Origin: an uncultured Faecalibacterium sp.
Lineage (GTDB): Bacteria; Bacillota; Clostridia; Oscillospirales; Ruminococcaceae
Direction of reading: 5' to 3'
DNA: 12,287 nucleotides
NCBI GenBank assembly: GCA_934561485.1
Contig: CAKTGS010000058.1
Span: 1 to 12,287, forward strand
The notes under the pieces are model-generated. The model saw only the letters and a program-made list of their open reading frames with translations, made no database searches and was not told the DNA's origin. Each line of letters begins with the position of its first letter. Position 1 is the stretch's first letter. The translations under genes were made by a program, and so were the position numbers. Positions 4,560 through 8,438 of this stretch are shown here, one piece after another.

Positions 4560-4580
4560 ATGGCGTCTTAGCCAATCTTT

Positions 4581-4606
4581 GCCGCTCCGTTGGTTGACGG
4601 GGCGGC
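4581..4606 (+). terminator. 10-bp hairpin containing the -35 of the DUF1538 promoter
   Basis: GCCGCTCCGT (4581-4590) pairs with ACGGGGCGGC (4597-4606), with one U-G wobble and a 6-base loop. Only a broken T-rich stretch follows (ATTTGGTTT), so it may be a weak terminator for the gene upstream. Because the -35 TTGACG sits in its loop and right arm, it could instead be an operator-like palindrome. Confidence 0.5.
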
Positions 4607-4622
4607 ATTTGGTTTGTATACT
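4594..4622 (+). promoter_or_regulatory. Promoter of the DUF1538-PII operon
   Basis: TTGACG (4594-4599) and TATACT (4617-4622) are separated by 17 bases, a strong match to the housekeeping consensus. Transcription should start near 4629, about 44 bases before the proposed GTG start. Confidence 0.8.
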
Positions 4623-4672: not shown

Positions 4673-6223
4673 GTGGACGCAATTCTGAAAGCATCTCTCC
4701 CCAAACTGCGGGAAAAACTGCTGGAAGCGCTGCAGGCGGTGCTGCCCATTGTGGCCATTGTGCTGGTGCTGTGCTTTACGGTTGCGCCGGTGTCGCCCAG
4801 CATTCTGCTGTGTTTTCTGCTGGGCGCAGCCATGATCGTGGTGGGCATCATGTTCTTTACTCTGGGCGCAGAAATGAGCATGACCCCCATGGGCGAGCGT
4901 GTAGGCGCAGTGCTGACCAAAAGCCGCAGACTGCCGGTGATCCTGGGCATCGGTTTCCTGCTGGGGTTCCTCATTACCATTTCCGAGCCGGACCTGCAGG
5001 TGCTGGCCAACCAGGTGCCCTCCATCCCCAACCGGACCTTGATCCTGTCGGTGGCGGCGGGTGTGGGGCTGTTCCTGGCCGTGGCGTTTCTGCGTATGCT
5101 CATCGGCATCTCGCTGCCCCGGCTTCTGGTGCTGTTTTACGGCATCATTTTTGTGCTGGCGGCTTTTGTGCCCCGGGAGTTTCTGGCCGTGGCCTTTGAC
5201 TCCGGCGGCGTGACTACCGGCCCCATGACGGTGCCCTTTATCATGGCTCTGGGCGTGGGCGTGTCTGCCATCCGCGGCGACCGCCATGCCGCGGACGACA
5301 GCTTCGGCCTGGTGGCCATGTGCTCGGTGGGGCCGATCCTGGCTGTGCTCATTCTGGGCATTGTGTTCCGCGCCTCCGACAGCACGTACATCCCGCCGGT
5401 TTTGCCGGACGTGGCCGATTCGGTGGAGCTGTGGCAGCTGTTCCACGAAGGGCTGCCTGCTTATCTCAAGGAGATCGCCGTCTCGCTGCTGCCCATCATT
5501 GTGATGTTCGGGGTGTTCCAAGCCGTGGCCCTGCGGCTGGACAAGCGCACCCTGGGGCGCATCGCGGTGGGCCTGGCCTACACCTATGTGGGGCTGGTGC
5601 TGTTCCTCACCGGAGCAAACGTGGGCTTTATGCCTGCCGGTAATTACCTGGGGCAGGTACTGGCGGGGCAGAGCTTCCGCTGGCTGCTCATCCCCATCGG
5701 AATGCTCATCGGTTACTTCATCGTCAAGGCCGAGCCGGCCGTCTACGTGCTGAACAAGCAGGTGGAAGAGGTAACGGACGGTGCCATTTCGGCCCGGGCC
5801 ATGGGCATGGCACTTTCGGTGGGCGTGTCCCTCTCGGTGGGGCTGGCCATGGTGCGGGTGCTCACCGGCATTTCCATCCTGTGGTTCCTCATTCCGGGCT
5901 ATGCGGTGGCCATTGGCATCTCTTTTGTGGTGCCCAAGCTGTTTACCGCCATTGCCTTTGACGCGGGCGGTGTGGCTTCCGGCCCCATGACGGCCACCTT
6001 CCTGCTGCCGCTGGCCCAGGGAGCCTGCGTGGCCGCGGGCGGCAATATCGTCACCGATGCCTTCGGCGTGGTGGCCATGGTGGCCATGACCCCGCTCATC
6101 ACGGTGCAGCTGATGGGCCTGGCGGCACAGATCAAAACCCGCAGGGCACGCCGGATGCAGCCTGCAGCTGCCTGTGCCGGGGCCTTTGCCGACTGGCCGG
6201 ATGACGCCATTATTGAACTGTAA
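4673..6223 (+). CDS. DUF1538 family polytopic membrane protein (internally duplicated)
   Basis: I recognise this 516-residue, strongly hydrophobic protein as DUF1538; no biochemical role is established that I know of. It consists of two repeats about 250 residues apart. SEPDLQVLANQV (104-115) matches AEPAVYVLNKQV (353-364); RMLIGIS (141-147) matches RVLTGIS (395-401); AFDSGGVTTGPMT (174-186) matches AFDAGGVASGPMT (428-440); SFGLVAM (210-216) matches AFGVVAM (463-469). Each half contains several membrane segments, and a charged tail follows residue 487. Duplicated membrane halves with conserved GGV..GPMT loops suggest a transporter or channel (inference). The next gene, a tandem PII protein 12 bases downstream, suggests nucleotide or metabolite-gated activity. 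The start is uncertain: GTG at 4673 has AAAGG only 2 bases upstream, and an in-frame TGA at 4664 excludes earlier starts. Confidence 0.85.
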   Translation: MDAILKASLPKLREKLLEALQAVLPIVAIVLVLCFTVAPVSPSILLCFLLGAAMIVVGIMFFTLGAEMSMTPMGERVGAVLTKSRRLPVILGIGFLLGFLITISEPDLQVLANQVPSIPNRTLILSVAAGVGLFLAVAFLRMLIGISLPRLLVLFYGIIFVLAAFVPREFLAVAFDSGGVTTGPMTVPFIMALGVGVSAIRGDRHAADDSFGLVAMCSVGPILAVLILGIVFRASDSTYIPPVLPDVADSVELWQLFHEGLPAYLKEIAVSLLPIIVMFGVFQAVALRLDKRTLGRIAVGLAYTYVGLVLFLTGANVGFMPAGNYLGQVLAGQSFRWLLIPIGMLIGYFIVKAEPAVYVLNKQVEEVTDGAISARAMGMALSVGVSLSVGLAMVRVLTGISILWFLIPGYAVAIGISFVVPKLFTAIAFDAGGVASGPMTATFLLPLAQGACVAAGGNIVTDAFGVVAMVAMTPLITVQLMGLAAQIKTRRARRMQPAAACAGAFADWPDDAIIEL

Positions 6224-6235
6224 GGAGGGGGCCGC

Positions 6236-6922
6236 ATGAGCAGTTTGTTTTTGATGGTCACCATCACCGACCGCCGTTCCACCGATGCCTTTTTGCAGCT
6301 GTACCAAGCCCACGGCGTGACCGTGAGTCTGCGCACGGTGGGTTCCGGCACGGCGGTGCAGGAGACCCTGTCCACCCTGGGGCTGGAAAAAACCGAGAAG
6401 GCGGTGCTGCTGGCTGTGGTCACCGTGGAGAGCTGGCAGAAGATCCAGCGCGATCTGCGCCGCAGCCTGCGCATTGATGTGCCGGGCACCGGCATTGCAT
6501 TCACCGTGCCGCTGAGCAGCATTGGCGGCAAGCGGGCACTGCAGTTTCTCACCGAACATCAGCCCCTGCATTGGGAGGAGGAAAGCACCTTGAAGGATAC
6601 CCGTTACGAACTTTTGCTGGTAATTGCCAACCAGGGGCACACCGGTTCCATCATGGATGCGGCCCGGGCCGCTGGGGCCGGCGGCGGCACCGTGATCCAC
6701 GCCAAGGGCACCGGTATGGAAGGGGCTGCCCACTTTATGGGTGTGGAGTTGGTGAACGAAAAGGAGCTGGTGCTCATCGTGAGCCGCACCGCCCAGAAAA
6801 ACACCATCATGAAGGCCATTATGGAAGGAGCCGGCCCCAAGGCGGGAGCCATTGTGTTCTCGCTGCCGGTTACCGATACCGCCGGCCTGCGCCTGATGGA
6901 AGAGGACGAGGCACCGGCCTGA
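6236..6922 (+). CDS. Tandem PII-like (GlnB-superfamily) regulatory protein
   Basis: PII proteins are small trimeric sensors that bind ATP/ADP and effectors and dock on transporters or enzymes. This 228-residue protein contains two PII-like halves. The C-half (about 122-217) is the clearer: LLLVIANQGHTGSIMDAARAAGA, then GGGTVIHAKGTG (149-160) in the T-loop region, and GPKAGAIVFSLPV (200-212) in the position of the phosphate-binding B-loop. The N-half (about 3-98) has the same strand-helix pattern (LFLMVTITDRRSTDAFLQLY split around residue 11) and a VPGTGIAFTVPL segment (82-93), but is more diverged. The classical uridylylated T-loop tyrosine context is absent. AAGGAGG (6222-6228) overlaps the upstream stop and lies 7 bases before the ATG, so the gene is cotranscribed with the DUF1538 gene. 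A role as its regulator is inference from this linkage. Confidence 0.85.
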   Translation: MSSLFLMVTITDRRSTDAFLQLYQAHGVTVSLRTVGSGTAVQETLSTLGLEKTEKAVLLAVVTVESWQKIQRDLRRSLRIDVPGTGIAFTVPLSSIGGKRALQFLTEHQPLHWEEESTLKDTRYELLLVIANQGHTGSIMDAARAAGAGGGTVIHAKGTGMEGAAHFMGVELVNEKELVLIVSRTAQKNTIMKAIMEGAGPKAGAIVFSLPVTDTAGLRLMEEDEAPA

Positions 6923-6944
6923 TCCGCCCCCAAAAACCGAACAA

Positions 6945-6988
6945 AACGCCGTGTTTATCGCCGAACGCTTGATAAACGCGGCGTTTTT
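6945..6988 (+). terminator. Strong terminator of the DUF1538-PII operon
   Basis: A 15-bp stem (6945-6959 with 6971-6985, one G-U pair) carries an 11-base loop and runs directly into five T residues (6984-6988). It lies 22 bases past the PII stop. The right arm also holds part of the next gene's promoter. Confidence 0.9.
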
Positions 6989-6997
6989 CGTTATCAT
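6969..6997 (+). promoter_or_regulatory. Promoter of the YitT-family gene, overlapping the terminator stem
   Basis: TTGATA (6969-6974) lies at the loop and right arm of the terminator hairpin. TATCAT (6992-6997) follows after 17 bases. This gives a start near 7004 and a leader of about 27 bases ending in AAAGGG (7017-7022). Confidence 0.65.
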
Positions 6998-7030
6998 AGA
7001 AGAAAGATTTTCAGGAAAAGGGTGTATGAT

Positions 7031-7909
7031 ATGATTCAACTTTCACACAAGCAGCAGGCCGTGTACAGTGCGGCGTCCATTTTGGTGGGCAACGCACTGT
7101 ATGCGCTCACGGTGGTGCTGTTTCTGATGCCGTCCGGCCTGATCACCGGCGGTGCCACCGGCATTGCGCTGGCAGTGAACAAGGCCACCGGGCTTGCGGT
7201 GTCCGGGGTGCTGTTTGCGGTCAACATGGCCATGCTGACGCTGGGCTGGGTGGCGCTGGGCCGCAAGTTTGTCCTCAACACCATTGCCAGCACCGTGTTA
7301 AGCCCGCTGTTTCTGGCGCTGTGGGAACGGCTGTTCGGCAGCATCGTGCTGACGGAGGACCTGGTGCTCAACACCGTTTTTGCGGGCCTGGGCGTGGGCG
7401 TTTCGCTGGGCATCACCATCCGGGCCGGGGCTTCCACGGGCGGCATGGACATTCCACCGCTGGTGCTCAACAAGTGGTTCCACCTGCCGGTGTCCGCCAC
7501 CATGATGGCGTTTGACTTTGCCATTCTGGCCATGCAGGCGGCCTTCAGCCCGCTGCAGCAGTCACTGTACGGCATCGTGCTGGTCATTGTGTACACCGTG
7601 GTGCTGGACAAGGTGCTGCTGCTGGGTACCACCCGCACCGAGGTCAAGATCATCAGTGTGCAGGCGGACGCCATCTGCAAGGCCATTCAAGCCGAGCTGG
7701 ACCGCGGCGTGACCATCCTGCACGGCGAGGGGGCCTACCGCCGGGAGCCGGAGCAGGTGCTGCTGAGCGTGATCTCCAACCGGCAGCTGCCCCGGCTGGA
7801 AAAGCTGGCCCACACCATCGACCCCACCTGCTTTATGATCGTGAGCCACGTGACCGAGGTGAGCGGGCGCGGCTTCTCGCTGGAAAAGGATTACCAGGCG
7901 GAGGAGTAA
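7031..7909 (+). CDS. YitT family membrane protein (DUF161 plus DUF2179)
   Basis: The 292-residue product has an N-terminal membrane domain of about five or six segments (residues ~8-195) with the family motifs SGLITGGATGIA (35-46) and ITIRAGASTGGMD (128-140). A soluble C-terminal DUF2179 domain (~203-282) starts at TEVKIISV and ends in SGRGF. This matches B. subtilis YitT and its paralogues, whose substrate is not established; transport is assumed from topology. The ATG at 7031 is preferred because AAAGGG lies 8 bases upstream; a GTG at 7022 would add three residues but overlaps that site. The gene is monocistronic: a strong terminator precedes it, and a 274-base gap with repeats follows. No clear terminator hairpin is seen at the T-run after its stop (7916-7923). 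Confidence 0.88.
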   Translation: MIQLSHKQQAVYSAASILVGNALYALTVVLFLMPSGLITGGATGIALAVNKATGLAVSGVLFAVNMAMLTLGWVALGRKFVLNTIASTVLSPLFLALWERLFGSIVLTEDLVLNTVFAGLGVGVSLGITIRAGASTGGMDIPPLVLNKWFHLPVSATMMAFDFAILAMQAAFSPLQQSLYGIVLVIVYTVVLDKVLLLGTTRTEVKIISVQADAICKAIQAELDRGVTILHGEGAYRREPEQVLLSVISNRQLPRLEKLAHTIDPTCFMIVSHVTEVSGRGFSLEKDYQAEE

Positions 7910-8183: not shown

Positions 8184-8438
8184 ATGTTTGATATTTTCAA
8201 TATGCTCAAAAAAGAAGAGAACAACGCCCCCAAGCAGGTCACCCGGGAGACCATCATCGGCGACATCCTGGACATGGATCAGACCACTGCCCCCTACTTT
8301 ATGGAGATCGGGATGCACTGCCTGGGCTGCCCGGCTTCCCGCGGGGAGAGCATCGAGGAAGCCTGCGCAGTGCACGGCGTGGACTGCGAAGAGCTGATCG
8401 AGAAGCTGAACGAGCACCTGGCCGCAAAGAAGGCCTGA
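8184..8438 (+). CDS. DUF1858 redox-disulfide domain protein
   Basis: This 84-residue cytoplasmic protein is the small domain sometimes called the hybrid-cluster-protein-associated redox disulfide domain. It shows the hallmark order: VTRETIIGDILDMD (19-32), APYFMEIGMHCLGCP (36-50) with the CxxC pair Cys46/Cys49, and GVDCEELIEKLNEHL (65-79). Two extra cysteines lie at 61 and 68. Family members are thought to undergo thiol redox or bind a metal or cluster, but no reaction is established. A 10-residue charged N-terminal extension precedes the domain. AGAAAGGA lies 9 bases before the ATG. The stop codon is separated by one base from the TTG start of trmK, so the two are translationally coupled. 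Confidence 0.9.
   Translation: MFDIFNMLKKEENNAPKQVTRETIIGDILDMDQTTAPYFMEIGMHCLGCPASRGESIEEACAVHGVDCEELIEKLNEHLAAKKA

Follow-up and report, generated by a model that had tools for sequence, protein, structure and literature searches.

A DUF1538 membrane protein and a tandem PII protein as a probable sensor-switched transport unit in Faecalibacterium

The two-gene unit and its neighbours

The window, by which we mean the whole 12,287-nucleotide stretch of DNA analysed here, comes from a Faecalibacterium-like host. Its closest named locus is that of Faecalibacterium prausnitzii, where the DUF1538 protein is 93% identical. Two adjacent genes and the signals around them are considered here:

4594 to 4622, plus strand: promoter-like site TTGACG-17-TATACT, putative for the two-gene unit (10/12 in a consensus scan)
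4673 to 6223, plus strand: gene for a double DUF1538 membrane protein (PF07556; 516 amino acids, GTG start), an UmpA-like half followed by an UmpB-like half
6222 to 6228, plus strand: ribosome-binding site AAGGAGG of the PII gene, read from the sequence and overlapping the TAA stop of the DUF1538 gene
6236 to 6922, plus strand: gene for a tandem PII protein (PF00543, AlphaFold and Foldseek; 228 amino acids, ATG start)
about 6938 to 6990, plus strand: intrinsic terminator hairpin with a T-rich 3' side (fold -27.1 kcal/mol, z -5.13)

The gap between the genes is 12 bases. With the ribosome-binding site over the stop codon, the promoter-like site, and the strong terminator also found, the two-gene unit is as originally predicted. 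Promoter-like sites of such score numbered five between 4300 and 7200, against 0.7 expected in the consensus scan. Just 3' of a gltD-like gene, a hairpin at 4580-4607 shares bases with the -35 hexamer of this promoter-like site and may be the terminator of the upstream gene. Among 200 shuffled sequences, none folded as well as the terminator hairpin downstream of the pair, which is absent from the consensus scan list because its loop exceeds the length that the scan allows.

Both proteins were of the kind expected. The first matched PF07556 in two stretches (461.8 bits against a gathering cut-off of 22.6, E 2.8e-139), and its AlphaFold model (pLDDT 92.1, pTM 0.90) shows a helical membrane fold in duplicate, in agreement with the duplicated polytopic membrane protein of the original prediction. 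The second, described there as a fused double PII, matched PF00543 in two stretches (50.2 bits against a cut-off of 25, E 3.6e-13) and was modelled as two ferredoxin-like domains (pLDDT 83.3, pTM 0.81). Each gene is already annotated publicly, one as "DUF1538 domain-containing protein" and the other as "P-II family nitrogen regulator".

Directly downstream of the PII gene, positions 7022-7909 encode a YitT-type membrane protein with a DUF2179 domain. The accessible part of a study of Borrelia BB0017 describes a PII-like structure for the DUF2179-containing C-terminal domain of that protein (PMC6516651), and two membrane/PII-like units therefore lie side by side in the window. A small protein with a DUF1858, or hybrid-cluster-protein-associated redox disulfide, domain is encoded at 8184-8438. 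These flanking genes are rare beside the pair, with yitT found in 3, the gltD-like gene in 5, and DUF1858 in 2 of the 80 closest loci.

Linkage and fusion of DUF1538 and PII across genomes

In 79 of these 80 loci, DUF1538 is followed on its own strand by a tandem PII gene, and in the remaining one (L033) the contig stops 79 bases past DUF1538. A draw of 398 genomes from the phylum, with the central genome (G001) included, was chosen to reach beyond close kin, and DUF1538 was present in 139 of them. We surveyed one locus per genome for all 139; the following are raw counts with kin included. In 132 loci, PII shared the strand of DUF1538 at a domain-to-domain distance of 20-346 bases. Five others ran off the contig (L089, L167, L209, L226, and L227), and two had no adjacent PII: L229/G063, in which the DUF1538 frame is broken, and L140/G225. 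The latter has a fused DUF1538 without the C-terminal tail described below, and its tandem PII is on another contig. Profiles for the locus surveys, and for the fusion search below, were built from sequences gathered in this analysis.

In a plasmid collection, in which some records are chromosome-sized (2.6 Mb), searches with DUF1538 and with a single-domain PII retrieved the same nine records, at neighbouring coordinates. Five of the nine were also matched by the PII of the window itself, which is more diverged. Three records are alphaproteobacterial (Chelativorans and two Methylocystis), and there a pair of DUF1538 genes stands in a row with a gene for a single-domain PII. The evidence from outside the surveyed phylum consists of these three plasmids and a single fusion whose source is given as Anaerolineaceae. 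The DUF1538-PII pairing is far beyond chance, and the linkage across taxa that the original prediction proposed to check was found, both within the phylum and on alphaproteobacterial plasmids. Our search of the open-access literature, which most subscription journals lie outside, returned no paper on the pairing. The word "undescribed", used in the original prediction, therefore agrees with this search as far as the pairing is concerned but not for the transporter family, on which work has been published.

The two domains also occur in a single protein. At two surveyed loci (L208/G396 and L212/G335), the double DUF1538 protein continues C-terminally into a PII domain, at residues 514-613 and 515-614, respectively. 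In both, the fusion gene is preceded by a tandem PII gene, so that the unit has three PII domains in all, which would suffice for a single three-PII ring. We then have a wider set from protein clusters, searched with the fused PII part only as query and limited to proteins of 0.55-1.75 times the length (765 candidates). PF07556 was present in all 88 hits, of which 84 were DUF1538-DUF1538-PII and four were shorter DUF1538-PII proteins, with a median PII start at residue 509. Clostridiaceae and Anaerolineaceae are among the named sources. This PII domain is divergent (best Pfam E 0.0016 in seven proteins scanned), and it shares 33% identity with the Methylocystis PII (BLASTP E 3e-14). Fusions, which the original prediction had suggested surveying for, thus exist both in surveyed loci and in protein clusters.

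PII copy number broadly tracks DUF1538 architecture in the 132 loci, again in raw counts with kin included. Where DUF1538 is a fused double protein (57 loci), PII is a tandem in one frame in 55 and in two frames in two, and it is never single-domain. Separate DUF1538 genes (55 loci) accompany one PII domain in 27, a tandem in 16, and two PII frames in 12, with L132 and L142 among the last group as two whole modules side by side. Loci with one DUF1538 domain (20) have one PII domain in 15 and are cut by the contig end in five (L085, L197, L199, L200, and L228). Two DUF1538-PII modules adjoin within one locus in L128, L132, L142, and L146, which makes these loci a natural test of partner specificity.

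A conserved motif also lies at the end of the DUF1538 protein:

6200 to 6220, plus strand: C-terminal tail DDAIIEL of the DUF1538 protein, a candidate peptide for the docking of PII on the cytosolic side

The DUF1538 protein ends in [IV][IV][ED]L in 65 of 108 pairs of fused DUF1538 and tandem PII with a placeable start. The spacing between the two genes varies across these pairs from -20 to 163 bases, the value of -20 hinging on start codon placement. Because the tail is conserved despite this variable spacing, the constraint acts on the protein. The tail comes after a stretch rich in lysine and arginine that is predicted to be cytosolic, and natural fusions attach PII at the same end. We regard DDAIIEL as a candidate docking site for PII, judging from its sequence and position.

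PII content also differed among genomes. A single DUF1538 match was found in 17 genomes of the phylum draw, four of which (G034, G114, G125, and G289) are cut by a contig end. Each of the other 13 (G216, G373, G250, G111, G274, G208, G352, G354, G237, G161, G189, G305, and G327) has one PF00543 match at E 0.001, which adjoins the intact lone DUF1538, and no further GlnB/GlnK-type PF00543 match at that threshold. Seven named Clostridia, Faecalibacterium and Hungatella among them, have at least one stronger PF00543 match besides the DUF1538-linked PII; in five of the seven, a stronger match sits in a frame of 581-641 amino acids. In these relatives, another PII is therefore available for nitrogen control.

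Substrate, topology, and the PII ligand site

The original prediction knew of no assigned substrate for DUF1538, which proved wrong. In the available part of its description, UmpAB of Halomonas zhaodongensis, which belongs to the DUF1538 family, carries out Na+(Li+,K+)/H+ antiport; it was identified through selection for salt tolerance and termed the first of its family (PMC5484666). UmpA and UmpB are described there as two homologous proteins of seven transmembrane segments that form a heterodimer and jointly confer antiport. Antiport in E. coli came from the two genes alone, so PII is dispensable for basal activity. A term search for PII or P-II gave zero occurrences in the main text of this paper and none in the main text of the other papers naming UmpAB that it covered.

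The nearest NCBIfam models to the window protein are those of UmpA and UmpB (the pair NF041627/NF041628), at 152.7 and 139 bits, respectively, against curated equivalog cut-offs of 490 and 500. Because these scores fall far short, we can only infer that the Faecalibacterium protein shares the monovalent cation substrates Na+ and K+. A structure search of the PDB with the AlphaFold model gave no clear match. Four acidic positions, E105, D176, E354, and D430, are invariant or nearly so across both halves in sequence comparison.

PII could instead gate a DUF1538 protein that in Clostridia carries something other than Na+/K+, whether another ion or an organic solute. The missed equivalog cut-offs would agree with this, as would the origin of the lone characterised pair in a salt tolerance selection and the regulation by PII elsewhere, in the sources available to us, of ammonium, nitrate, urea, and bicarbonate transport. 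However, the near-invariant acidic residues are what a cation/proton exchanger would have, and UmpAB exchanges K+ and Li+ as well, according to the accessible text (PMC5484666). We consider a different substrate rather unlikely and favour monovalent cations.

The two halves of the DUF1538 protein appear to be oriented in opposite directions:

4748 to 5365, plus strand: DUF1538 half A, residues 26-231, predicted N-in/C-out (Pfam stretch and loop charges)
5420 to 6190, plus strand: DUF1538 half B, residues 250-506, predicted N-out/C-in (model helices and loop charges)

Counts of lysine and arginine in homologous loops of halves A and B mirror each other. We expressed this as a charge bias, the count in alternate loops from the N-terminus minus that in the remaining loops. 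With a loop split that was set after the pattern had already been seen, the bias was positive in all 36 fused A halves and all 43 split A proteins. On the B side it was negative in every one of 36 fused halves and in 42 of the 43 split proteins. The fused halves were every second row of their set (36 of 71); duplicates (L188 and L189) and contig-cut DUF1538 (L179, L197, L199, and L200) were excluded. By contrast, 16 lone DUF1538 proteins, several of them close kin, scattered around zero (seven positive, six negative, and three zero; mean -0.06). These mirrored and scattered biases predict antiparallel DUF1538 halves and a dual-topology-like arrangement in the lone forms. The terms "topolog", "antiparallel", and "inverted" gave no match in the main text of PMC5484666.

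The PII halves differ in a complementary manner:

6245 to 6553, plus strand: PII half 1, residues 4-106, with the B-loop motif PGTGIAF kept and GGT and GRG lost
6605 to 6904, plus strand: PII half 2, residues 124-223, with GGTVIHAKGTG and EKE kept and the B-loop motif lost

In Foldseek, single PII domains matched GlnK1/GlnK2 with target TM-scores of about 0.6-0.7, and the three top rows by E-value were other proteins, aligned across both halves at low TM-score. Alignment to GlnK1 showed a shorter T-loop region and replacement of K90. At this column of the B-loop (TGxxGDGKI), as set by the GlnK1 alignment, lysine occurred in none of 324 PII domains from sequences gathered in this analysis. The original prediction would have counted it as evidence against itself if both PII halves had lost the residues that bind nucleotides; the canonical K90/B-loop motif is indeed gone, but the pairing is not thereby refuted. 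Single-domain partners carry a signature of their own, GGTIxxGRGTGIHE...EPEKE...KPGxGIAF...GIxHL, and the five that were scanned matched PF00543 at 33.3-42.2 bits. Among the matches listed, two tandem PII relatives (P0083 and P0084) have an added PF00072 response-regulator domain.

In the window's clade, whose DUF1538 proteins have the tail, GGT is present in 0 of 78 first halves and 78 of 78 second halves, and the B-loop glycine in 77 and 0 of 78, respectively. The partition is partial beside fused DUF1538 without the tail (GGT in 32/44 and B-loop in 44/44 first halves; 44/44 and 38/44 in second halves). Tandems next to split DUF1538 hardly show it: the two motifs occur in 16 and 16 of 17 first halves and in 15 and 17 of 17 second halves. 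Single-domain PII proteins have GGT in 44 of 46 and the B-loop in 46 of 46. This reciprocal motif loss points to a family-specific site that, in the window's clade, is split across the two PII halves. In classical PII proteins, the ligand lies between neighbouring subunits, so that a composite site is plausible, without this being proof.

The missing B-loop lysine, the motifs lost within each tandem half, and the near-constant pairing could also be explained if PII served the transporter as a constitutive component, for structure or assembly, and sensed nothing. This seems unlikely, given that the GGT, GRG, EKE, PGxGIAF, and GIxH signature is kept in single-domain partners and that UmpAB works from two genes (PMC5484666, accessible text). 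Less probable again is that PII senses c-di-AMP in the manner of PstA/DarA and ties the pump to potassium signalling. Its PII-like fold would fit, as would K+ exchange by UmpAB (PMC5484666) and the link between c-di-AMP and potassium in Bacillota, both as given in the available portions of the sources. However, PF00543 was the sole Pfam match of the window PII at E up to 1, and a PstA-type model was not listed. Moreover, the same pairing occurs in Alphaproteobacteria, which are mostly without c-di-AMP. That PII regulates nitrogen or carbon metabolism independently of the transporter, sharing only a transcript with it, could be read from its PF00543 domain, from the several targets of classical PII proteins in the sources available, and, taken alone, from the 13 genomes with a sole PF00543 match, but is very improbable in light of the fusions, the second and stronger PF00543 match in seven named Clostridia, flanking genes that change while the pair stays, and a tail conserved at the protein level.

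Proposed control and known systems

Our preferred reading is that the locus encodes an UmpAB-like monovalent cation/proton antiporter gated by its own dedicated PII, to which we assign a probability of roughly two in three. At the level of sequence, linkage, fusions, matched domain numbers, and genomes with only the DUF1538-linked PF00543 match strongly support the control of the DUF1538 protein by PII that was originally predicted, and the PII sensor probably switches the DUF1538 pump. We infer gating, the direction of control, a ligand, and a physical complex, the last with indirect support from the fusions. Two antiparallel DUF1538 halves would make up one transporter. On the cytosolic side of this transporter the tandem PII would dock, probably to the tail that ends half B and to cytosolic loops. 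An effector, perhaps an adenylyl compound, would then bind between the PII domains and alter the rate of antiport.

A broader evolutionary scenario is offered tentatively, as possible but doubtful. DUF1538 may have passed from a dual-topology homodimer to an antiparallel gene pair and then to a fused inverted repeat. Its PII partner may have undergone duplication and fusion in parallel, leaving two unlike PII halves to serve two unlike cytosolic faces. The split-site composite PII of the window's clade, with half 2 supplying the GGT/GRG side and half 1 the B-loop, might gate the antiporter via the docked tail, outside the trimer-on-trimer rule given for transporters under PII control.

Among known systems, UmpAB is the closest in kind, as a member of the DUF1538 family with two homologous cooperating units and, in the available text, a hydrophilic C-terminus on the B unit (PMC5484666). 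However, it is encoded by two genes in Halomonas rather than one fused gene, and its paper's main text is without PII, whereas the window gene adjoins one. The YitT/DUF2179 protein of Borrelia (BB0017) likewise joins a membrane domain to a PII-like C-terminal domain in the accessible part of its description (PMC6516651), but its membrane family is not DUF1538.

GlnK-AmtB also places a PII-family gene beside a transporter, with control that is known there, in the portions of the sources available, and proposed in the window. Its transporter is of another family, and its PII is single with a canonical B-loop, in contrast to the tandem with altered B-loops found here. SbtB-SbtA pairs a PII-family protein with a secondary transporter, but SbtA is described in the available text as a trimer of another family, and SbtB chains in the PDB are of about 104 residues and one domain, unlike the tandem of the window. 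The PII-gated transporters named in the accessible part of a review (Amt, Nrt, Urt, and SbtA) all handle nitrogen or carbon compounds. If our reading is true, an ion/proton antiporter family joins them, one present in 139 of 398 genomes of a single phylum, and the natural fusions make the DUF1538-PII interaction easy to test.

EmrE, paired SMR proteins, and Fluc are dual-topology and paired small transporters. As in those families, DUF1538 includes an unbiased lone gene, gene pairs predicted to be antiparallel, and fused inverted repeats. By contrast, DUF1538 units are larger, with about seven helices, and a soluble regulator is present at each stage. The lone, paired, and fused series would therefore allow an antiparallel transporter and its regulator to be traced together in evolution.
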